64,000 nucleotides of DNA from Mangrovibacillus cuniculi. GTDB lineage: Bacteria > Bacillota > Bacilli > Bacillales > R1DC41. Positions 39,309 to 48,916 of the stretch are shown one piece after another; position 1 is the stretch's first letter; every line of letters starts with the position of its first letter. Location: the NCBI RefSeq assembly GCF_015482585.1, contig NZ_CP049742.1, positions 2,939,001 through 3,003,000 on the forward strand, given 5' to 3'. A program made the position numbers and the translations under genes. The notes under the pieces were generated by a model, which saw nothing but the letters and a program-made list of their open reading frames with translations, was not told the origin of the DNA and ran no database searches.

Positions 39309-39989
39309 CTATAAGCTATCTAATAATCTGTTTGCTTCATCGATATGGATAGAGAACTTTAATCCTTTCTTCACTAATCCTTCTTTTTTAAATTGACTCA
39401 TGATCGAGCTAGTCGTTTCACGTGAAGATCCGACCATATTAGCGATGTCCTGATGAGTCAATTTCATATTAATCGATTGCCAATGATTTTTTCGTTTTCC
39501 GGTTTTTTCGCTTAATTTAACAAGCAAGTAAAGTATTCTGTACTTCACATCTCCAAGAGCAATTTTTTCACTCATGCTGTAAATTTCTTTTAAACGTGTA
39601 GAAAGGATATTGATTAGCTTAAGGGCAATCTTGGGGTTATTTTCAATAAACTTTTCAAACTCTGTTTTACTAATAATGCACAAGTACGTTTCTGTCATTG
39701 CCTCTGCGTATGTATCGTCATCTGTCAACGAAAGGGTGGAAGTTTCTCCGAAAATATTACCATCAATTAAAACATCAATAGTGAACTGTTTACCTGAAGG
39801 GTTTATTTTATACAATTTCACTTGCCCTTTTTTTAGTAAGAATAAAGCTTCAATCGGTTTGTCAGGGGAGAAGATAATAGTCCCTTTAGGAACAGGTCTC
39901 ATCTCGCTTAATTCATCAATAATATGTAATTCTTCCATTGGTAATTCATCAAATAAGCTTATTTGAGACAGTAAAAATAATTTATCCAT
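39309..39989 (-). CDS. Crp/Fnr-family transcriptional regulator
   Basis: A 226-residue regulator with a cyclic-nucleotide-type sensor domain (about 10-125), a dimer helix and a winged helix (about 150-220; HQDIANMVGSSRETTSSIM is the recognition helix). It has no cysteine cluster, so it is not an iron-sulfur Fnr. The ATG at 39989 follows GAAGGAG. A palindrome of Crp/Fnr type lies 35-50 bp upstream, suggesting self-control and control of the divergent glutaredoxin-like and OsmC genes. Confidence 0.85.
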   Translation of the reverse strand: MDKLFLLSQISLFDELPMEELHIIDELSEMRPVPKGTIIFSPDKPIEALFLLKKGQVKLYKINPSGKQFTIDVLIDGNIFGETSTLSLTDDDTYAEAMTETYLCIISKTEFEKFIENNPKIALKLINILSTRLKEIYSMSEKIALGDVKYRILYLLVKLSEKTGKRKNHWQSINMKLTHQDIANMVGSSRETTSSIMSQFKKEGLVKKGLKFSIHIDEANRLLDSL

Positions 39990-40023
39990 GCTATTCTCCT
40001 TCATTAACCTTCTAAAATTAAAG

Positions 40024-40039: not shown

Positions 40040-40096
40040 GATTATTTATTAAGCATTGAGGTACATTATGGATGTAGAAAAGAGAGGTGAGACAAA

Positions 40097-40342
40097 ACGT
40101 CTAAGCTTTATATAATTGATGGATGCTCCAAATGCAAAGTAATGAGAGATTGGCTTATGGAAAAGGAGATACCTTTTGAAGAAGTGAACATTCTCCAAGT
40201 AATGAATGCAAGAAACGAACTATTTCGTATAATTGGAGAAATCTCTATCCCAGTATGGTGGGATAAAACTTCCAACTCAATTGTAACGTATCAAGATATT
40301 AAAACAAAAATGTATGATTCAAAAAGTAGTGTTATTCACTAA
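40097..40342 (+). CDS. Glutaredoxin-like protein with apparent non-standard start
   Basis: The frame encodes SKLYIIDGCSKCKVMRDWL near its N terminus, a strand followed by a CxxC redox motif, and later SIPVWW, the cis-proline loop of the thioredoxin fold. The full product would be about 81 residues, normal for NrdH/glutaredoxin-like proteins. No ATG, GTG or TTG exists between the upstream stop (TGA at 40088) and the CxxC; the first, ATG 40142, would remove the active site. ACG at 40097 lies at ideal spacing from AGAGGTGA and is the likely start. ATT or ATA codons are alternatives. A Crp-type site precedes it. Confidence 0.6.
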   Translation, partial: TSKLYIIDGCSKCKVMRDWLMEKEIPFEEVNILQVMNARNELFRIIGEISIPVWWDKTSNSIVTYQDIKTKMYDSKSSVIH

Positions 40343-40358: not shown

Positions 40359-40382
40359 TTATAAAAATAAGGAGTGACCTTA

Positions 40383-40811
40383 ATGATTGAAAAAATAACT
40401 GCAGTATCTAAAGGAATGTACACAGAAGGAATCTCTCATAATCATAAGGTTGTTATTGATGAACCGGCTAATATGGGCGGAACAGATAAAGGAGCCAACC
40501 CTTTAGCTACATTACTTGTATCATTAGTAGGTTGTGAAAACGCGATTGCGAACTTTGTAGCAAAGGAAATAGAGTTTGACTTGCAAGGAATTGACTTTGA
40601 AGTAAGTGGTGAAATTAACCCTAAAGGGATGATGGGTGATAAATCAGTACGTCCTTATTTCCAAAAGATTTCTGTAAGAGCAACTGTGCATACATCTGAA
40701 ACGCAAGAACGAGTAGATGAATTACAACGAATAGTTGATGAAAGATGCCCTATTTACACAACAATGGTAGCGGCAGACGTAGAAATGGTTCCTACTTGGA
40801 CAAAAGCATAA
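40383..40811 (+). CDS. OsmC/Ohr-family protein
   Basis: A 142-residue OsmC-fold protein with both cysteines of the peroxidatic pair, one in LLVSLVGCENAIANF and one in VDERCPIYTTM. Ohr/OsmC proteins reduce organic hydroperoxides; this sequence is nearer to the YhfA/OsmC subgroup whose substrate is less clear. The ATG at 40383 follows AAGGAG; the GTG at 40374 overlaps that site. With the glutaredoxin-like gene and the Crp-type regulator it forms a small redox cluster. Confidence 0.85.
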   Translation: MIEKITAVSKGMYTEGISHNHKVVIDEPANMGGTDKGANPLATLLVSLVGCENAIANFVAKEIEFDLQGIDFEVSGEINPKGMMGDKSVRPYFQKISVRATVHTSETQERVDELQRIVDERCPIYTTMVAADVEMVPTWTKA

Positions 40812-40817
40812 TAGAGA

Positions 40818-40850
40818 AGAATCCTGAGATTATATTCTCAGGATTCCCTT
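40818..40850 (+). terminator. Terminator after OsmC gene
   Basis: GAATCCTGAGA and TTCTCAGGATTC form a stem followed by T-rich sequence. Confidence 0.75.
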
Positions 40851-41061
40851 TATCTTTCTATTATAGGCCTCAAAACATTATCGCAAAAAGAGATTACAGT
40901 TACGATAAAGTTTTGAGAGCTATAATAGTGGTACATTAAATTTTGTAGAAAACAAAATACTTATGGTACGTTGAATGCAGGAATTGATCTAAACATACAT
41001 TTAATTCGTATACTTCAATGAGTCTACTGGCACTGCAAAAAACCTACAGGAGGAACACTTT

Positions 41062-42273
41062 GTGAAAAAAATCATCACTTTATGCCTTTCCGCACTGATC
41101 CTAGTGGGATGTTCCAACACACAATCTTATTCTCCAACCGAGGTTCAACAAATGAGTTGGACAGAAGTAAAAGAAGCTGCTTCCGGTCAAGAAGTTCGCA
41201 TGTTCCTTTGGGGTGGCGATGAAGGGATAAATCGTTATATCGATGAATACATGAAACCGCGCCTAGAAAAGCATGGCATTACAATTAAGAGAATTCCGAT
41301 GGACACGCCTGAAATTCTTCAAAAGCTCCAAACGGAAAAGGAAGCTGGAAAGAAGGCAGGGACGATTGACTTAGTCTGGATCAATGGCGAGAATTTTGCC
41401 TTAGCGAAAGAAGAAGAATTACTATACGGCCCCTTCTTAGAGACACTCCCAGTCTATGAATCTAACTATGCTCCGTCAAAAGATCAGTTTTCCATTGATT
41501 TTGGACAGACGGTTGATGGTCTAGAAGCTCCATGGGGGAAAGTTCAATTTGTTTTTCAATACGACGAAAAGAACGTCCAACGTCCACCTGCGTCCCTGGT
41601 GGAGCTGGACCAATGGATAAAAGAAAACCCTGGGAAATTTACGTTTCCAGACCCATCTGATTTCACTGGTAACGCATTTCTGCGACATCTTCTTTACGAC
41701 GCAGTAGGCTTGGAGAAACTACAAAACGGTACCCCAGAAGAAGTCATAGAGGAAGCATGGCCAATAATGATGGAACGTTTAGAAGAGTGGCAACCTAACT
41801 TGTGGAGAAAAGGGGAAACGTATCCAACTAGTTTAGAAGAATTAGATCGCCTATACGCACAAGGTGAGGTATGGATGTCTATGGGGTACAATGAAGCTAG
41901 AGCGGAACATTTCATGGAAAAAGGTATTTTCCCTGAAACAACGAAAACGTTTGTATTAGAAGAAGGTTCGATTGGTAACCATCACTATTTGGCGATACCA
42001 ACTAATTCTCCTAATATCCCAGCAAGTTTAGTTGCTATTAACGAATTTCTTTCCGTTGACGCACAATTAGAGAAACTCCGCCCTACGTATTGGGGAGAAA
42101 ATACCCCTTTAAACGTAGAGTCGTTAAAGCCAGAAGAAAAGAGTAAATTGGAATCTATCTATAGAGGGGAAAGCGTCCTTCCTGCAGAGGAACTAGAGGA
42201 AGTATTTCAACCGGAAGTAGATGCGGCTTACGTTACATTAATTGAAGAGAAGTGGAACAATGAACGAAAATAA
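41062..42273 (+). CDS. YnjB-type ABC transporter substrate-binding lipoprotein
   Basis: A 403-residue binding protein with lipobox LVGC (Cys about 16), then an SBP_bac_1-type fold. The blocks MFLWGGDEGINRYIDEYMKP and GTIDLVWINGENFALAKE are those of the YnjB family (COG4134-type). Its substrate is not known. GTG at 41062 follows AGGAGG with 8 nt. First gene of a seven-gene operon with overlapping or close junctions. The upstream 250 bp hold an AT-rich promoter region without a clear operator. Confidence 0.87.
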   Translation: MKKIITLCLSALILVGCSNTQSYSPTEVQQMSWTEVKEAASGQEVRMFLWGGDEGINRYIDEYMKPRLEKHGITIKRIPMDTPEILQKLQTEKEAGKKAGTIDLVWINGENFALAKEEELLYGPFLETLPVYESNYAPSKDQFSIDFGQTVDGLEAPWGKVQFVFQYDEKNVQRPPASLVELDQWIKENPGKFTFPDPSDFTGNAFLRHLLYDAVGLEKLQNGTPEEVIEEAWPIMMERLEEWQPNLWRKGETYPTSLEELDRLYAQGEVWMSMGYNEARAEHFMEKGIFPETTKTFVLEEGSIGNHHYLAIPTNSPNIPASLVAINEFLSVDAQLEKLRPTYWGENTPLNVESLKPEEKSKLESIYRGESVLPAEELEEVFQPEVDAAYVTLIEEKWNNERK

Positions 42274-43120
42274 TAAGAAAAGTAGGGGCTGGCTCTGGTT
42301 AGCCCCTTCTATTTTCATTATCGGTATATTAAGTACAGCTGGTTTCTTAAAAGCACTACAAAACAGCCTAGCTGCAAATCAACATCCGCTTATGTATTAT
42401 ATGGAACTGTACCAGAATCCAGTATTTTTGAAGTCACTAGGGTTCACAATATGGATTACACTAGTATCTACTATTCTCTCCATTCTTATTGGCTGGGGAA
42501 TTTGCAAAGTGACCGTCCCTTATTTAAAGAAAGCATCTAATAGACTCATCATATGGATTCCAATGATGTTTCCACACTTTGTTTGGGCTTACATGGTCTA
42601 TTTACTAGTAAATCCTAGTGGTGTCATATCTATTACGTTAGTTGAAATCGGTTTAGTAGAAAACAGAGAATCGTTTCCATTGTTAGTACAGGACAAGTGG
42701 GGAATTGGAACAATTATTACTTACGTTTGGAAAGAGGTTCCTTTTGTTATTTTAATGTTACTACCAGCATATGTAGAAATGGATACGAGATACAAAGAAC
42801 AAGCGTCTTTACTGGGTGCTTCTAAATGGAAGGTATTTAAAATCGCAGAGCTCCCATGGATTGCCCCTACTCTTTTAGAGATTTTACTTATCTTAGTCGC
42901 TTTTATCTTTGTTGGATATGAAGTGCCTGCTTTAGTAGGTTCCTCAGAACAAAAAGCGCTTGGTGTTTTACTATTTGATTGGTTTTACGGCGGCAATGTT
43001 GCTAATCGTCCACTTGGCTATGCGCTAGCTGTCAGCTTAACCATAACAATGGGAATCATGGCTTGGTTTGGCTTTAGGAAAGCAAGAACGATGCGACAAA
43101 GGTTGGTGAATAGTGCATGA
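42260..43120 (+). CDS. ABC transporter permease, YnjC N-half type
   Basis: A 286-residue permease with six helices and the EAA loop EQASLLGASKWKVFKIAELP (about 182-201). In E. coli YnjC is one double-length chain; here it is two genes. The ATG at 42260 overlaps the binding-protein gene by 14 bases. Confidence 0.87.
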   Translation: MNENNKKSRGWLWLAPSIFIIGILSTAGFLKALQNSLAANQHPLMYYMELYQNPVFLKSLGFTIWITLVSTILSILIGWGICKVTVPYLKKASNRLIIWIPMMFPHFVWAYMVYLLVNPSGVISITLVEIGLVENRESFPLLVQDKWGIGTIITYVWKEVPFVILMLLPAYVEMDTRYKEQASLLGASKWKVFKIAELPWIAPTLLEILLILVAFIFVGYEVPALVGSSEQKALGVLLFDWFYGGNVANRPLGYALAVSLTITMGIMAWFGFRKARTMRQRLVNSA

Positions 43121-43911
43121 GAACACCTACAAATATTTGGTTCTTTGCGGTTCTAGGCAGTATTTTTCCGCTGCTTCTACTCGTTTGGAAAAGTTTTACC
43201 GGGTTTTTAACCTTTGGAGAACTGGATGTGTCAGATTGGACCATACGAGGATACCGAACGATTTTTCAAGATGTTTTATTAATAGAAGCATTGTGGACTA
43301 CCATTTACATTACCTTTCTTGTCATCTGGATTACGTTAGTGTGTGCCTTTTTAGCAGGACGAGTATTAGCATTTAAAGAGTGGAAAGGGAAGAGTGCGAT
43401 CGAATTGCTCTTATTTTCTCCCTTACTACTGCCTGTTATCGCAATCGCAATAGGTTTACAAATAATCTTAATTAAAATGGGGATTGCTGATACCATACTC
43501 GGAGTGGTGATAATTCACTTACTACCTACGTTACCTTATGCCATTACTATGATGCGTTCAGGAATGGAGAGAATGGGACAGAAGTGGAGAGAGCAAGGGA
43601 TGTTGTTGCATCCGTCCAATGCTAGAACCCTTTTCCTCATTGAACTACCAATGCTATTGCCGACTATTCGAAGTATCGTCTTTTTAACAACCGTCATTAG
43701 CTTAAGTCAGTATGCGCTAACGGCAATCATTGGTGGAGGAAATGTGATTACGTTAGCTCTGATCTTTTTTCCATACGCTAATTCCATTGATGATACGATG
43801 GTGACGGCGTTTGCCTTGTTATTTGCGCTACTACCAATCTTCTTCTTTTTACTGCACGAACTATTATTTCGGATACTCTTCTCAACGTTGAAAAAGAGGT
43901 GGTTAACATGA
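43117..43911 (+). CDS. ABC transporter permease, YnjC C-half type
   Basis: A 264-residue permease with about six helices and an EAA-type loop REQGMLLHPSNARTLFLIEL (about 158-177). ATGA overlaps on both sides couple it to the first permease and the ATPase. Together the two halves should form the channel. Confidence 0.85.
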   Translation: MRTPTNIWFFAVLGSIFPLLLLVWKSFTGFLTFGELDVSDWTIRGYRTIFQDVLLIEALWTTIYITFLVIWITLVCAFLAGRVLAFKEWKGKSAIELLLFSPLLLPVIAIAIGLQIILIKMGIADTILGVVIIHLLPTLPYAITMMRSGMERMGQKWREQGMLLHPSNARTLFLIELPMLLPTIRSIVFLTTVISLSQYALTAIIGGGNVITLALIFFPYANSIDDTMVTAFALLFALLPIFFFLLHELLFRILFSTLKKRWLT

Positions 43912-44861
43912 GCTATGTAGAAGTGAGCAATATTACTAAAACAGTAAAAGATAAAAATCTTTTAGAAAACGTCTCTTTTACAATAGAAAAAGGAGAGATT
44001 ATCAGTTTACTAGGTTCATCAGGAGCTGGGAAGACAACGCTCCTTCGCGTTTTAGCTGGATTAGAATCGGTAACATCGGGGAACATCCTAATTAACGGGC
44101 AAGACGTCACCACTATACCCGCACAAGAACGTGGTGTAGGTATGGTGTTTCAACAACCACTATTATTTCCACAGTTAACAGTCGGAGAGAATATTGCTTT
44201 TGCCATGCAAGCTTCTAAGAAAAAGACCCGATCTGTGAAAGAGTGGTTAGAAGCAGTCGGATTACAAAGCTATGAAACGGTTTACCCGAACACGTTATCT
44301 GGTGGGCAACAACAACGAGTAGCATTCGTTCGTTCTTTGGCAGCATCGCCGTCTCTATTACTGTTAGATGAACCTTTTAGTGCGCTTGATCCATCTACAA
44401 GAGAAGATTTACGGCTATGGTTACGAACGTTTCTTAAAGAGCAGCAAACAACTGCCATCTTTGTGACACATGATATGGAGGAAGGAACTATTATTGGAGA
44501 CAAAATCGCTTGGGTCGAAGAAGGACAAGTGGTGCAAGTGGGTACATCGGAAGAACTAAAAGAAAAGCCAAAACATGAGCAAATTTTAAAGTCTTTGGGA
44601 GAAGGTATTCCGTTACCCACTGGTGGCTTTATTCGTCAAAAACACCTTATGTGGGATACCACACCCCCAACCAACACACATTTTGCGGGTAATGTAATAC
44701 GAACCATTGCAAAAGAAGAAGGAATATATGCATACATCCAAGTAGCAGAACTTGACGCCAATGTTTTAGTAAAAGGTATAAGGTTGGAAGAAGGTCAAAA
44801 AGGCTATCTTACGTTTCCAAAAGAAGCTGTAGAATTTTTAGAGAAGGACGATAACGGATGA
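43908..44861 (+). CDS. ABC transporter ATPase, YnjD type
   Basis: A 317-residue ATPase with Walker A GSSGAGKTT (about 36-44), signature LSGGQQQRVAFVR (about 129) and Walker B LLLLDEPFSALD, plus a C-terminal extension (about 235-317) like a TOBE domain. E. coli YnjD is shorter (217), so this extension is an addition. ATG at 43908 follows GAGGTGG. Confidence 0.88.
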   Translation: MSYVEVSNITKTVKDKNLLENVSFTIEKGEIISLLGSSGAGKTTLLRVLAGLESVTSGNILINGQDVTTIPAQERGVGMVFQQPLLFPQLTVGENIAFAMQASKKKTRSVKEWLEAVGLQSYETVYPNTLSGGQQQRVAFVRSLAASPSLLLLDEPFSALDPSTREDLRLWLRTFLKEQQTTAIFVTHDMEEGTIIGDKIAWVEEGQVVQVGTSEELKEKPKHEQILKSLGEGIPLPTGGFIRQKHLMWDTTPPTNTHFAGNVIRTIAKEEGIYAYIQVAELDANVLVKGIRLEEGQKGYLTFPKEAVEFLEKDDNG

Positions 44862-45487
44862 AAAAAATTTTCCTATTAAGTATTGTTATTGTGGTAGCAA
44901 TTTTGTTTTACTTTCTATTTCCACACATTCAAGATATCTCCCCAACAGCTATTAAAAACTGGTTACAATCGTTTGGGATTTGGGCTCCAGTCATCTTTGT
45001 CGTTGCCTATACGTTTCGTCCGCTTATTCTTTTTCCAGCCTCCATCCTTTCCTTGACCGCTGGATTAGTGTTTGGAGCTTGGCTAGGGTGGCTCCTAATC
45101 ATCCTTGGTGCGATGGGAAGTAGTGCAGTTGCATATGGGATGACGTACGGTGGTTTGGGGAAATTTTTAAAAATTGATCCTTTGCAAAAGTTCCCTAATT
45201 TCCAGAAGAAGCTGGACGAACAGGGATTCTGGTACATTTTTTGGATAAGGTTAATCCCAGTAGTCCACTTTGATCTGATTGGTTATGTAGCGGGTGCAAC
45301 CCGAGTACCATTCTGGAATTTCATGCTGGCAACATTCCTAGGAATACTGCCAGGCACTTTCGTTTATAGTTTTTTAGGCTCTTCTTTTACCTCTGGAGAC
45401 TGGTCAACTATTCTATTAGCTGTTGTATTGTTTTTCCTTGTGACGGTTATACCGATAGTAATCCAAAGAAAGTGGAAAAAAGTATAA
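44858..45487 (+). CDS. TVP38/TMEM64 (DedA-superfamily) membrane protein
   Basis: A 209-residue protein with about five or six membrane segments and the family blocks RPLILFPASILSLTAGLVFG and FWIRLIPVVHFDLIGYVAGA. It corresponds to YdjX/YdjZ of the E. coli cluster. The superfamily is linked to lipid scrambling or flipping. ATGA overlap with the ATPase gene. Confidence 0.87.
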   Translation: MKKIFLLSIVIVVAILFYFLFPHIQDISPTAIKNWLQSFGIWAPVIFVVAYTFRPLILFPASILSLTAGLVFGAWLGWLLIILGAMGSSAVAYGMTYGGLGKFLKIDPLQKFPNFQKKLDEQGFWYIFWIRLIPVVHFDLIGYVAGATRVPFWNFMLATFLGILPGTFVYSFLGSSFTSGDWSTILLAVVLFFLVTVIPIVIQRKWKKV

Positions 45488-45502
45488 GATCGGAGAAAGA
45501 AA

Positions 45503-46084
45503 ATGTTAGACACACATGCAAGAAAATATGTTCAACCAATTTTCACATACAGTGCCAAATGGCTTTTAAAATTAGGGCTATCAGCCAATCAAGTAACAGT
45601 AATAGCATTTATTATTGGCTCCTATACAGGTTTCTTCATTTATTGGGATATGCCATTTATCGCATTGTTTGCTCTGTGGTTTTCCGGATTTCTAGATGTA
45701 GTAGATGGCAGTATGGCACGCCTAACAAAGCCGTCTCCATTCGGTACAGTAATGGATGTAACGTTTGATCGAATAGTAGAAATCAGTGTCATCCTAGGAC
45801 TGGCATTTCGCTATCCAGACGTCATGTGGGCACTTTTATTACTAAGTGTTTCCATCATCGTTTCCATGACCATCTTCTTAACTGTAGGAGCAGTGACAGA
45901 AAAGCAAGGAATGAAATCATTCTATTATCAAGCTGGAATAGCCGAGCGAACGGAAGGGTTTGTTTTATTCAGCATCATGATTTTATTCCCTTCTATTTTA
46001 CTGTGGTCAACGCTACTATTTTTTGCAATCGAACTATTCACAGGAATGCAGCGTTTCTTAGAAGCAAAAAAGATATTGTCGTAA
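45503..46084 (+). CDS. CDP-alcohol phosphatidyltransferase (YnjF type)
   Basis: A 193-residue membrane enzyme with the complete catalytic motif D-x2-DG-x2-AR-x7-G-x3-D-x3-D (starting at LDVVDGSMARL, about residue 68). This class joins a CDP-linked lipid and an alcohol, making phospholipids or, in YnjF relatives, unknown products. GGAG lies eight bases before the ATG. Fifth membrane protein of the operon. Confidence 0.88.
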   Translation: MLDTHARKYVQPIFTYSAKWLLKLGLSANQVTVIAFIIGSYTGFFIYWDMPFIALFALWFSGFLDVVDGSMARLTKPSPFGTVMDVTFDRIVEISVILGLAFRYPDVMWALLLLSVSIIVSMTIFLTVGAVTEKQGMKSFYYQAGIAERTEGFVLFSIMILFPSILLWSTLLFFAIELFTGMQRFLEAKKILS

Positions 46085-46099
46085 CGGGGGAGATATAGC

Positions 46100-47524
46100 A
46101 TGTATGACATCATAGTTATTGGTGGAGGAGCAGCAGGTTTAACAGTTGCAGCAGGAGCAAGTTCTCTGGGTGCGAAGGTAGCACTAGTAGAGAAGTCAAA
46201 ACTTCTCGGAGGAGACTGTCTACATTTCGGATGTGTTCCTTCCAAAGCCCTAATTTCTATTGCAAATCAAGTGGCAGAAGCCAGGAAGACTACCAAGTTT
46301 GGAATGGATGTGTCCGGAGATATTAATGTAGAAAAAGTGATGGAACAAGTACAAAGCTCTATCCGTACCATTCAAGAACACGATGATCCAGACCGCTTTG
46401 AAAAGCTAGGTGTAGATGTTCTCTTTGGAGCGGCAAGCTTTATCACGTCTACGAAAATAAAAGTCGGAGAAAGTAAGACAATAGAAGGAAAAAGAGTGGT
46501 GGTAGCAACTGGTTCAAGTCCATTTATTCCGCCAATAGAAGGTTTAAAAGACATTCATTACTGGACGAATGAGACAGTTTTCACCATGAAACAACTACCA
46601 AAGCGTCTTCTAGTCATCGGTGGAGGAGCTATTGGGATGGAATTGTCTCAAGCATTTGCTAGACTAGGAAGCGAAGTCACGCTAGTAGAAAGAGGTAAAA
46701 CGCTAGGAAAGACTGGTGACAAGGAATTGGTGGGGAAAGTAACAGAGCTTTTAGAGCGAGAAATGACTGTGTTTACTTCAACAGATGTGGAGAAGATATC
46801 TACCACCAATGAAGGGAAAATAATTGCTCTACGTGATCAAACCACTACTTTCACTCTTGAGGTTGATGAAATTATTGTTGCTGCTGGTCGTAAACCAAAC
46901 ACGAGAGAACTTAACCTCGATGGAGTTGGCGTAAAGGTGGACGAAAGAGGACATATATTAATAGACCGATATGGTCGTAGTTCCATTCCAACGATCTTTG
47001 GAATTGGTGATGTCAACGGTCAATATGGCTTTACGCATGCTGCTGGAATGGAAGGAAAAGCAGTGGTGCAAACTGCCGTATTAGGAATACCATCTAAGCT
47101 ATCGTACGAATCTTTCCCTTGGATTACTTTTACGGATCCGGAGTGGTTCCAAATGGGGTTAACAGAAGAGAGTGCCGTGCAACGTTTTGGAAAAGAGAAT
47201 ATCAACATTTATAAATCGTCCTTGGATGAGGTGGACCGTTTTATCGCTGAGCACCGTACAGAAGGAATCGTCAAAATGATTACGAAAAAAGACGGAACGA
47301 TTATTGGTGCCCATGCACTTGGAGTGGGAGCGGGTGATTGGATGCAGACAGTTGTGTACGCTGTACAAAAAAAACAGAAGATAGGCTCCCTTTCCAGAAT
47401 GATCTATCCATATCCGAATCGTGCGGGTGCAGTCCAAAAAACATCCGACTTATATTGGAGAGAAAAACTATTTAACGGTCCTTTTACCAAGATAACAAAG
47501 AAATATATTCAGTGGTTTAGATAG
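46100..47524 (+). CDS. FAD-dependent pyridine nucleotide-disulfide oxidoreductase
   Basis: A 474-residue flavoenzyme. FAD motif GGGAAGLTVAAGASSLGA (about 8-25), redox-active disulfide GGDCLHFGCVPSK (about 41-53), NAD(P) motif GGGAIGMELSQAFARLG (about 174-190) and a C-terminal dimer domain. It is often annotated as mercuric reductase, but lacks the N-terminal HMA domain and the C-terminal vicinal cysteines of MerA. Substrate is unknown. It closes the operon; a terminator follows. Confidence 0.88.
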   Translation: MYDIIVIGGGAAGLTVAAGASSLGAKVALVEKSKLLGGDCLHFGCVPSKALISIANQVAEARKTTKFGMDVSGDINVEKVMEQVQSSIRTIQEHDDPDRFEKLGVDVLFGAASFITSTKIKVGESKTIEGKRVVVATGSSPFIPPIEGLKDIHYWTNETVFTMKQLPKRLLVIGGGAIGMELSQAFARLGSEVTLVERGKTLGKTGDKELVGKVTELLEREMTVFTSTDVEKISTTNEGKIIALRDQTTTFTLEVDEIIVAAGRKPNTRELNLDGVGVKVDERGHILIDRYGRSSIPTIFGIGDVNGQYGFTHAAGMEGKAVVQTAVLGIPSKLSYESFPWITFTDPEWFQMGLTEESAVQRFGKENINIYKSSLDEVDRFIAEHRTEGIVKMITKKDGTIIGAHALGVGAGDWMQTVVYAVQKKQKIGSLSRMIYPYPNRAGAVQKTSDLYWREKLFNGPFTKITKKYIQWFR

Positions 47525-47529
47525 TTATA

Positions 47530-47562
47530 GCCTATCGGTTGTTACAGCCGGTAGGTTATTTT
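47530..47562 (+). terminator. Terminator after the ynj-like operon
   Basis: CCTATCGGc-type stem (CCTATCGG with CCGGTAGG) followed by TTATTTTG. Confidence 0.6.
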
Positions 47563-47704: not shown

Positions 47705-48262
47705 ATGTCAAAGCAAACAGTTATCACAGAAGCGATGAGACTTTTCGCTGAGAAAGGGTATGACGGTGCTTCTTTATCCATGATTGCCAAAGCAGCTGGG
47801 ATGAAGACCCCTTCTTTATATGCGCATGTGGAGTCGAAAGATGATTTGTTCTTAACAGCTTTTTCCGAAGTAATGAAAAAAGAAGAAGAGACGATGAAAC
47901 GGGCGATGAAGGATCAACGAGGAAAAGAACGCTTAAAAGCCATATTTACATTTTACACGGATCCGAATGGTAGGGAACTAGAGCGTGCTTTTTATCTACG
48001 AGCATTATTTTTCCCGCCAGAGCATTTAGAAAAAGATATTAAACAGATGGTTATTCATGTGGAAACGATGATGTCGCATGAATTAGTGCAAACGTTAAGG
48101 GAACTAGAGTTATTGGTTCTAGAAGAAAATTGGATTCATTCTTTCTACGCATTGATGGATGGTTTGCTTTTAGAACAGAGACTGTATGAAGATGAAGAAC
48201 TTCAACAACGTATTGTATCAGCTTGGGCGACGTTAGAAGCATTACTTAAGGAGGAAAAATGA
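47705..48262 (+). CDS. TetR-family regulator of SMR efflux pair
   Basis: A 185-residue TetR protein with N-terminal helix-turn-helix (about 8-55; GASLSMIAKAAGMKTPSLYAH) and a helical ligand domain. It is the first gene of an operon with two SMR transporters and follows a strong promoter with a palindromic operator, so it probably represses its own operon until a drug or cation binds. The gene arrangement matches B. subtilis yvdT-yvdS-yvdR. Confidence 0.87.
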   Translation: MSKQTVITEAMRLFAEKGYDGASLSMIAKAAGMKTPSLYAHVESKDDLFLTAFSEVMKKEEETMKRAMKDQRGKERLKAIFTFYTDPNGRELERAFYLRALFFPPEHLEKDIKQMVIHVETMMSHELVQTLRELELLVLEENWIHSFYALMDGLLLEQRLYEDEELQQRIVSAWATLEALLKEEK

Positions 48263-48263
48263 G

Positions 48264-48602
48264 ATGGCTTGGTTTTATTTGATTCTAGGCGGAATCGTAG
48301 AAGTGGTGTGGGCGACAGGCTTAAAATTATCAGAAGGATTTACTCGTCCTGGCATGACTGCTGTTACGTTAGTAGCTATCATAGTTAGTTTTTACTTTTT
48401 CGCAAAGGCACTTAAATTGTTATCTATTGGTACGGCTTATGCAGTGTTCACAGGAATAGGCGCAGCTGGGTCAGCGGTTGTTGGTATTTTATATTTTCAA
48501 GAATCGTTCTCGTTCTTCAAACTCTTCTTTTTACTAGTGTTGATTGCAGGCATAATCGGCTTAAAGCTAGTAGACGGGGATAAAGAGGAGGCGAAATCAT
48601 AA
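48264..48602 (+). CDS. SMR-family transporter subunit (YvdS/YkkC-like)
   Basis: A 112-residue four-helix protein with the conserved glutamate of helix 1 (GGIVEVVWATGLKLSEGF) used for proton/cation exchange. It pairs with the next gene as a heterodimer. GGAGG lies before the ATG; the gene begins one base after the regulator stop. Confidence 0.88.
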   Translation: MAWFYLILGGIVEVVWATGLKLSEGFTRPGMTAVTLVAIIVSFYFFAKALKLLSIGTAYAVFTGIGAAGSAVVGILYFQESFSFFKLFFLLVLIAGIIGLKLVDGDKEEAKS

Positions 48603-48916
48603 TGGCATGGATGTATTTAATTTTGGCAGGACTATTTGAAGTTGGACTTGTAACGTTTATGAAGTTATCGGATGGATTTACCAAAAAGATTTATTTGGTT
48701 TTAACACTTGCTTCTGGACTAACTAGCTTCTTTTTATTATCAAAAGCACTTGAGTCCATCCCACTTGGTTTAGGATATGGGATTTGGACTGGAATAGGAG
48801 CAGCTGGTGGCGTTATATTTGGGATGATCTTTTTTGGGGAGAAAAAAGACTGGCGCAAAATCCTTTTTGTCAGCATGATTATTGTTGGTGTAATGGGCTT
48901 AAAGATGGCTGGATAA
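48602..48916 (+). CDS. SMR-family transporter subunit (YvdR/YkkD-like)
   Basis: A 104-residue four-helix SMR protein with helix-1 glutamate (GLFEVGLVTFMKLSDGF). Its start overlaps the upstream stop by one base. Paired SMR proteins export quaternary cations or guanidinium; no guanidine riboswitch is present. Confidence 0.88.
   Translation: MAWMYLILAGLFEVGLVTFMKLSDGFTKKIYLVLTLASGLTSFFLLSKALESIPLGLGYGIWTGIGAAGGVIFGMIFFGEKKDWRKILFVSMIIVGVMGLKMAG

Follow-up and report, generated by a model that had tools for sequence, protein, structure and literature searches.

Systems related to the locus

In E. coli K-12, the genes ydjX-ydjY-ydjZ-ynjA-ynjB-ynjC-ynjD-ynjE lie side by side; ynjF runs in the opposite direction and is not part of the ynjABCD transcript. 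The YnjBCD proteins (COG4134-4136) are still termed an uncharacterized transport system (PMC9207381), and our literature search found no function reported for YnjBCD. The E. coli genes ydjXYZ-ynjABCD are activated by FNR (PMC3688515), and in genetic interaction data ynjABCDEFI group with sufCDS of the Suf system and with ydhD (PMC3930520). Here, we describe a related operon at 41062-47524 of a 64,000-nucleotide stretch of Mangrovibacillus cuniculi DNA (contig NZ_CP049742.1, positions 2,939,001 to 3,003,000, forward strand); this whole stretch is referred to below as the window. The operon is one Bacilli version of a broadly distributed, uncharacterised module that has the YnjBCD importer at its core, and it is a variation on the E. 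coli ydj/ynj set.

Members of the COG0398 group of DedA proteins, which includes TVP38, are proposed to scramble phospholipids; when fused to other domains, they most often carry the oxidoreductase domains that the flavin enzyme in the window also has (PMC10127716). Work cited in PMC12893004 identifies another DedA protein, PetA, as a transporter of phosphatidylethanolamine.

Gene organization of the operon

The operon had been proposed in a sequence-only reading of the window, and all seven open reading frames (ORFs) are indeed found at that place and on that strand, with the families correctly assigned. The genes and the hairpins that flank them are as follows:

40819-40846: terminator-like hairpin between an osmC gene and the operon
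41062-42273, + strand: YnjB-family binding lipoprotein (GTG start, lipobox Cys17; NF008633)
42260-43120, + strand: permease 1, counterpart of the N-terminal half of YnjC (PF00528; blastp match to YnjC)
43117-43911, + strand: permease 2, counterpart of the C-terminal half of YnjC (PF00528)
43908-44861, + strand: ATPase (YnjD) with a C-terminal extension (PF00005, E 1e-39; 37% identity to YnjD)
44858-45487, + strand: TVP38/VTT membrane protein of the YdjX/YdjZ type (PF09335, E 5e-27)
45503-46084, + strand: YnjF-type CDP-alcohol phosphatidyltransferase (PF01066; match to YnjF, E 2e-16)
46100-47524, + strand: FAD-dependent pyridine-nucleotide disulfide oxidoreductase (PF07992/PF02852)
47527-47559, + strand: terminator-like hairpin at the 3' end of the operon

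All seven genes lie on one strand, with a terminator-like hairpin on either side. The junctions are, in order, a 14-bp overlap, three 4-bp overlaps of the ATGA type and two 15-bp gaps; the earlier description of them as overlapping thus holds for four of the six and fails for the last two. Because the junctions are tight and hairpins flank the set, a single transcript is likely. The match to the E. coli ydjXYZ-ynjABCDEF set needs one correction: ynjF is on the opposite strand there, and ynjC encodes one fused permease.

Co-inheritance of the genes

The distribution of three of the genes was compared in one set of 61 Bacillales genomes. YnjB, the YnjF-type gene and the FAD enzyme are each present in 16/61, and the three sets of genomes are identical. 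All YnjF-type calls score at least 262 bits, and nothing else matches at E up to 1e-25; all FAD enzyme calls score at least 626 bits, the next best match being at 439. Five of the 16 positive genomes do not have the genes fully linked: all three genes lie apart in G006 and G051, and the FAD gene lies apart in G004, G010 and G055. In two families, a genome with the genes can be set against one without them (G003/G049 and G009/G054), and each contrast holds for YnjB, the YnjF-type gene and the FAD enzyme alike. An association this strong is not to be expected by chance (Fisher p 5e-15, without phylogenetic correction).

Gene neighbourhoods were examined in 80 genome loci with YnjB relatives, 15 Bacillales regions and 20 regions from an even phylum sample, with ORFs called and annotated by profiles built from the loci themselves; dereplication left 79 loci. 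A TVP38 gene and/or a CDP-alcohol transferase gene lies within 9.5 kb in 58/79, and the FAD enzyme or an HdrD-like protein (see below) in 46/79. The combination of TVP38 and/or transferase with a redox enzyme occurs beside ynjBCD in Bacilli, Chloroflexi, Spirochaetes, Rubrobacter, other Actinobacteria, Synergistetes, Clostridia and E. coli, so that clustering is seen in at least seven phylum-level groups. The last three genes of the operon are therefore conserved next to the importer well outside the genus, and the proposal of one conserved pathway across distant phyla is backed by both neighbourhoods and profiles.

The link is also seen from the side of the transferase. Among 299 Bacillota genomes, 26 have YnjB above its cut-off and 20 have a YnjF-type gene above 150 bits, with none at 84-150 bits. 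Within about 4 kb of ynjB lie 18 of these 20 strong YnjF-type genes (one ynjB is broken); of the other two, one is on a different contig from ynjB, which is located at the start of its own contig, and the other is without ynjB but adjoins TVP38 and ATPase genes. At L165:8000-10500, TVP38, a YnjF-type gene and an ATPase gene persist without ynjB, apparently as the remnant of a decayed module.

Since the profiles are identical even where the genes are unlinked, the within-family contrasts agree and the clustering crosses phyla, we are highly confident that the genes form one evolutionary unit, which is very probably a functional one as well.

The importer

The binding protein is a member of the YnjB family (COG4134), with 420 bits against the NF008633 cut-off of 203, and it is encoded together with two permease domains and an ATPase, as in a YnjBCD transporter. 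Profiles of both permeases match E. coli YnjC; the permeases are split in the window and fused in YnjC. The ATPase has 317 residues, compared with 217 in E. coli YnjD. The reported extension absent from YnjD is thus real but not peculiar to this operon: most relatives have about 320-350 residues, which makes the short E. coli YnjD the exception.

A structure model of the binding protein (pLDDT 91.6) has the solute-binding protein (SBP) fold. Its relatives in the PDB, of polyamine, phosphonate and related folds, are remote (13-20% identity, TM-score about 0.6), and for this reason no ligand is assigned. Residues N57, D103, W106, N108, E110, N111, W248 and N306 are invariant in an alignment of relatives, which suggests that a single ligand class may be bound throughout, although the residues do not name it.

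Two loci carry further genes that could bear on cargo. In Clostridium ihumii (L059:7819-10215), a thiamine pyrophosphate (TPP) riboswitch and thiT precede ynjBCD; this is the sole riboswitch hint, the element being present in 1/34 loci scanned and absent from the window, and thiamine was rejected as a general clue on that account. At L082:10260-16968 (Anaerolineales), ynjCD are followed by genes for GntR, an MttB-family methyltransferase and GcvT-like proteins, a possible quaternary-amine link; as these occur in a single locus, they were rejected as general partners.

YnjBCD could be a plain nutrient importer of the polyamine, thiamine or aminoethylphosphonate type, whose partners are merely co-regulated envelope and redox-stress genes. 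The nearest models for the ATPase and permeases are 2-aminoethylphosphonate and spermidine systems, the nearest SBP folds include PhnS-type STM0429 and PotD, one table of polyamine SBP homologues includes YnjB (PMC9397018), BaeR overexpression elicits a response from E. coli ynjABCD (PMC2731931), and the riboswitch and thiT of L059 fit as well. However, the SBP matches are as distant as stated above, the TPP element is in that locus alone of the 34 scanned, and co-regulation alone would not predict matching gain and loss of unlinked genes. We regard this explanation as unlikely.

The TVP38 protein and the CDP-alcohol transferase

The TVP38 protein belongs to the TVP38/VTT (COG0398 DedA) family: it has the VTT domain and matches YdjX (E 2e-15) and YdjZ (E 6e-14). 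It does not qualify as an undecaprenyl-phosphate transporter of the UptA type, scoring 30 bits against the NF052604 cut-off of 250. By analogy with its family, it is presumed to be of the phospholipid scramblase class.

The product of 45503-46084 is an enzyme of the CDP-alcohol class. Its site, D-x2-DG-x2-AR-x7-G-x3-D-x3-D, is complete and invariant across 27 relatives, and any substrate named for it is putative. The best structural matches of its model (pLDDT 89.7) are phosphatidylinositol phosphate (PIP) synthases, with TM-scores of 0.7-0.8; despite the shared fold, it scores 65 bits, far under the PIP synthase cut-off of 170 (NF045883). Neither the TVP38 protein nor the transferase contains a cysteine.

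The redox component

The FAD enzyme has a redox pair, Cys40/Cys45, no other cysteine, and Tyr438 where the catalytic His is expected. The CxxxxC motif and the Tyr are each present in 18/18 sequences. The enzyme scores 428 bits against NF004991 (cut-off 620) and 355 bits against the MerA model TIGR02053 (cut-off 454), and it has no C-terminal Cys pair. Because it has no cysteines beyond Cys40/Cys45 and has Tyr for His, it is neither a mercuric reductase by these tests nor a canonical enzyme of the glutathione reductase/lipoamide dehydrogenase type, in which CxxxxC is accompanied by a catalytic His within an HPT/HPS motif. The label "mercuric-reductase-like" in the sequence-only reading therefore does not serve as a functional clue. 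Detoxification of mercury or another metal around this enzyme would agree with its best PDB match, mercuric reductase 5x1y, and with the substitution of Tyr for the catalytic His, which MerA shares; yet the score is below the MerA cut-off, the whole protein has two cysteines and no NmerA domain, and no mer gene is found among the profiled neighbours. The idea is largely refuted, and mercury was ruled out on the cut-off and the cysteines.

The FAD enzyme is not the only redox protein found in this position. Clostridial loci carry instead an HdrD-like CCG/4Fe-4S protein resembling NF045663, in most cases together with a rhodanese, and loci of the aerobic type carry the FAD enzyme. In the 58 dereplicated loci with TVP38 or the CDP-alcohol transferase, the FAD enzyme alone is encoded in 23 and the HdrD-like protein alone in 19; one locus has both and 15 have neither, a mutual exclusion with p 4e-5 (without phylogenetic correction). 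The FAD enzyme and the unrelated HdrD-like protein are thus interchangeable, both being of disulfide/sulfur-redox families; this is a new observation. Since the HdrD type is also present in two Bacilli loci (L115, and L117 together with the FAD enzyme), the exchange is not set by phylum alone. Rhodanese genes occur in 18 loci, 16 of which also encode the HdrD-like protein. It had been suggested that the FAD enzyme takes the place of the E. coli sulfurtransferase and AhpD-like genes, which is too simple: the swap is between the FAD enzyme and the HdrD-like protein with a rhodanese. The broader suggestion of a thiol-redox component holds in spirit, given this swap, the recurrence of rhodaneses and YdjY, and the E. 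coli genetic clustering with Suf and ydhD.

Some displaced FAD genes keep other partners. In G004 and G055, the gene remains beside a TVP38 gene, away from YnjBCD. In G006 and G051, it adjoins a DUF1499 gene, and in Planococcus DUF1499 is fused to the FAD enzyme. DUF1499 is enriched in Bacillales genomes with ynjB (6/16 vs 2/45, p 0.003). Fused or adjacent arrangements are located as follows:

L036:6310-8244: DUF1499 fused or adjacent to the FAD oxidoreductase
L176:4925-6738: DUF1499 fused or adjacent to the FAD oxidoreductase
L178:5232-7050: DUF1499 fused or adjacent to the FAD oxidoreductase

Clostridial ynjBCD loci contain several additional genes: YedE-type, TusA-like, LysR, nucleoside hydrolase, APH-type kinase and TIGR04282/04283. 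The last, of arsenosugar type, were rejected as core partners, as they are found in 0/61 Bacillales genomes. The E. coli-like order TVP38-YdjY-TVP38 is seen again in Clostridium (L046, L098). A lipobox and a CxxCxxxC motif are present in YdjY.

Such genes raise the question of sulfur or selenium trafficking, in which the importer, TVP38 and the redox proteins would handle, at the membrane, a sulfane-sulfur, thiosulfate or selenium compound, with the lipid transferase as an accessory. The clostridial loci provide ExtH-like rhodanese lipoproteins, Sulf_transp proteins of the YedE/FdhT type, TusA-like proteins and a LysR near the selenium-metabolism model; E. coli has YnjE and the genetic link to Suf (PMC3930520), and DedA has been tied to selenite resistance (Ledgham 2005, as cited in PMC10127716). 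On the other hand, nearly all Bacilli loci lack YedE, TusA and rhodanese, and the inseparability of the transferase from ynjB is left unexplained. SelD is missing from the genome of the window and unassociated with ynjB in Bacillales (9/16 vs 28/45, p 0.77), on which ground a selenium-only role was rejected. Overall, trafficking of this kind appears somewhat unlikely.

A model for the module

Our preferred reading is a chain of solute import, lipid headgroup use, lipid movement and sulfur redox chemistry. YnjBCD would take up a small solute, probably cationic or zwitterionic. The YnjF-type enzyme would join a polyol or alcohol headgroup, namely the solute or a derivative, to a CDP-activated lipid. 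TVP38 may then move the resulting phospholipid between leaflets, as the VTT family and the phosphatidylethanolamine transporter PetA suggest. The FAD enzyme, or the HdrD-like Fe-S protein of clostridia, could act on the headgroup, or on the compound from which it is made, in a sulfur/disulfide redox reaction.

TVP38-FAD pairs that stay together away from YnjBCD (G004, G055) count in favour of this chain. Several points weigh against it. Neither TVP38 nor the transferase is encoded within 9.5 kb in 21/79 ynjBCD loci, which often have a nucleoside hydrolase and an APH-type kinase instead, so that the importer may serve other chemistry. No redox gene is nearby in 15/58 loci with TVP38 or the transferase; in Bacillales, it is found elsewhere in the genome. 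The solute and the lipid product are ones that we infer, and there is no direct sign of a thiol-bearing lipid, as TVP38 and the transferase are without cysteine. That the cargo is oxidised or thiol-reactive, as suggested in the sequence-only reading, and that it becomes a lipid headgroup are hypotheses. The chain as a whole is thus offered tentatively, and we think it rather more apt to be wrong than right.

A more specific form, which we hold to be improbable, is a lipid-borne transmembrane redox shuttle. The YnjF-type enzyme would use a precursor imported by YnjBCD to make a phospholipid whose headgroup bears a thiol/disulfide (or chalcogen); this lipid would be flipped by TVP38, reduced inside by the FAD- or HdrD-type reductase, and oxidised outside by YdjY, the rhodanese or other lipoproteins. 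The lack of cysteines in TVP38 and the transferase is consistent with such a shuttle, which, if true, would be a DsbD-like function borne by a lipid rather than by protein cysteines.

Joint gain and loss, together with a swappable redox part, mean that genes so far puzzling one by one, in E. coli as in many other bacteria, can be studied as a single testable pathway. It would yield either a phospholipid not seen before or a new way of running sulfur redox chemistry at the membrane. The DedA literature still asks how TVP38/DedA proteins are linked to disulfide oxidoreductases.

Genes and elements around the operon

The region upstream of the operon contains the following:

39309-40004, - strand: divergent CRP/FNR-superfamily regulator (PF00027 and PF13545; one Cys)
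40091-40342, + strand: glutaredoxin-like frame with CSKC (stop-to-stop ORF; PF00462, E 4e-7)
40374-40811, + strand: OsmC-family protein of peroxide/persulfide-type redox, 5' of the operon (PF02566, E 9e-15)
40858-40928: imperfect inverted repeat with 29-nt arms, 86% complementary, in the leader between the osmC terminator and the operon

The regulator has a single Cys and is therefore not an Fe-S FNR. It may possibly regulate the operon; CRP homologues lie within 9.5 kb in 7/23 Bacilli loci. In several Bacillales loci, L181 being an example, relatives of the regulator are also seen close to the operon or next to TVP38-FAD genes. The glutaredoxin-like frame has no ATG, GTG or TTG start, and ACG follows a ribosome-binding-site-like GAGGTGA; it possibly uses a non-standard start or has lost its start codon. 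A homologue adjoins locus L114, as an association only. The OsmC-family gene is beside the operon in L024 and L110 too; in the window, a terminator-like hairpin lies between. The inverted repeat is a possible operator or leader structure.

With these neighbours, the module could be seen as an envelope repair system, in which oxidised or electrophile-damaged lipids are flipped by TVP38 and reduced by the FAD enzyme, and OsmC, glutaredoxin and the CRP-type regulator form the stress response. The neighbours in Bacilli and the AhpD-like YnjA of E. coli would fit. This is nevertheless a long shot, as strict anaerobes retain the module, their Fe-S enzyme being of an O2-sensitive type, the E. coli operon is FNR-activated, i.e. 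anaerobic (PMC3688515), and the importer is given no role.

Elsewhere in the window, there is a cyclic di-AMP riboswitch (ydaO/yuaA leader) at 2428-2567 (78.7 bits), and 47705-48916 encodes a TetR-family regulator and, after it, two small membrane proteins in tandem that resemble a paired small multidrug resistance (SMR) efflux system. Anti-phage defence was rejected, as PADLOC gave no relevant match, only generic ATPase and flavin matches.

Comparison with known systems

The E. coli locus shares with the window the homologues of YnjB (34% identity, E 5e-61), YnjD (37%), YdjX/YdjZ and YnjF in the same neighbourhood, and it is likewise uncharacterised. Of the two, E. coli alone has the fused permease, the short ATPase, two TVP38 genes, the YdjY lipoprotein, the AhpD-like YnjA and the rhodanese YnjE, whereas the FAD enzyme is in the window operon and not at the ydj/ynj locus. 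Clostridial ynjBCD loci have the same importer with TVP38 and/or the CDP-alcohol transferase, but differ in having the non-homologous CCG Fe-S HdrD-like dicluster protein and an ExtH-like rhodanese, with no FAD enzyme in its slot.

B. subtilis has the gene order pssA-ybfM(petA)-psd. Like the window, it combines a CDP-alcohol transferase, a DedA lipid mover and a headgroup-modifying enzyme; its transferase is of another subfamily and its modifying enzyme is a decarboxylase, whereas the window has a redox enzyme and an importer. PIP synthases share with the window transferase the fold and the CDP site, and Arg184 aligns with their conserved C-terminal QR; identity is 24-26%, and the other acceptor-site residues are not kept. 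Finally, the COG0398 DedA-oxidoreductase fusions (PMC10127716) place TVP38 and the same oxidoreductase domains side by side, as in the window. They are reported as a domain statistic, without the importer or the CDP-alcohol transferase, whereas in the window the two are separate genes within a larger set.

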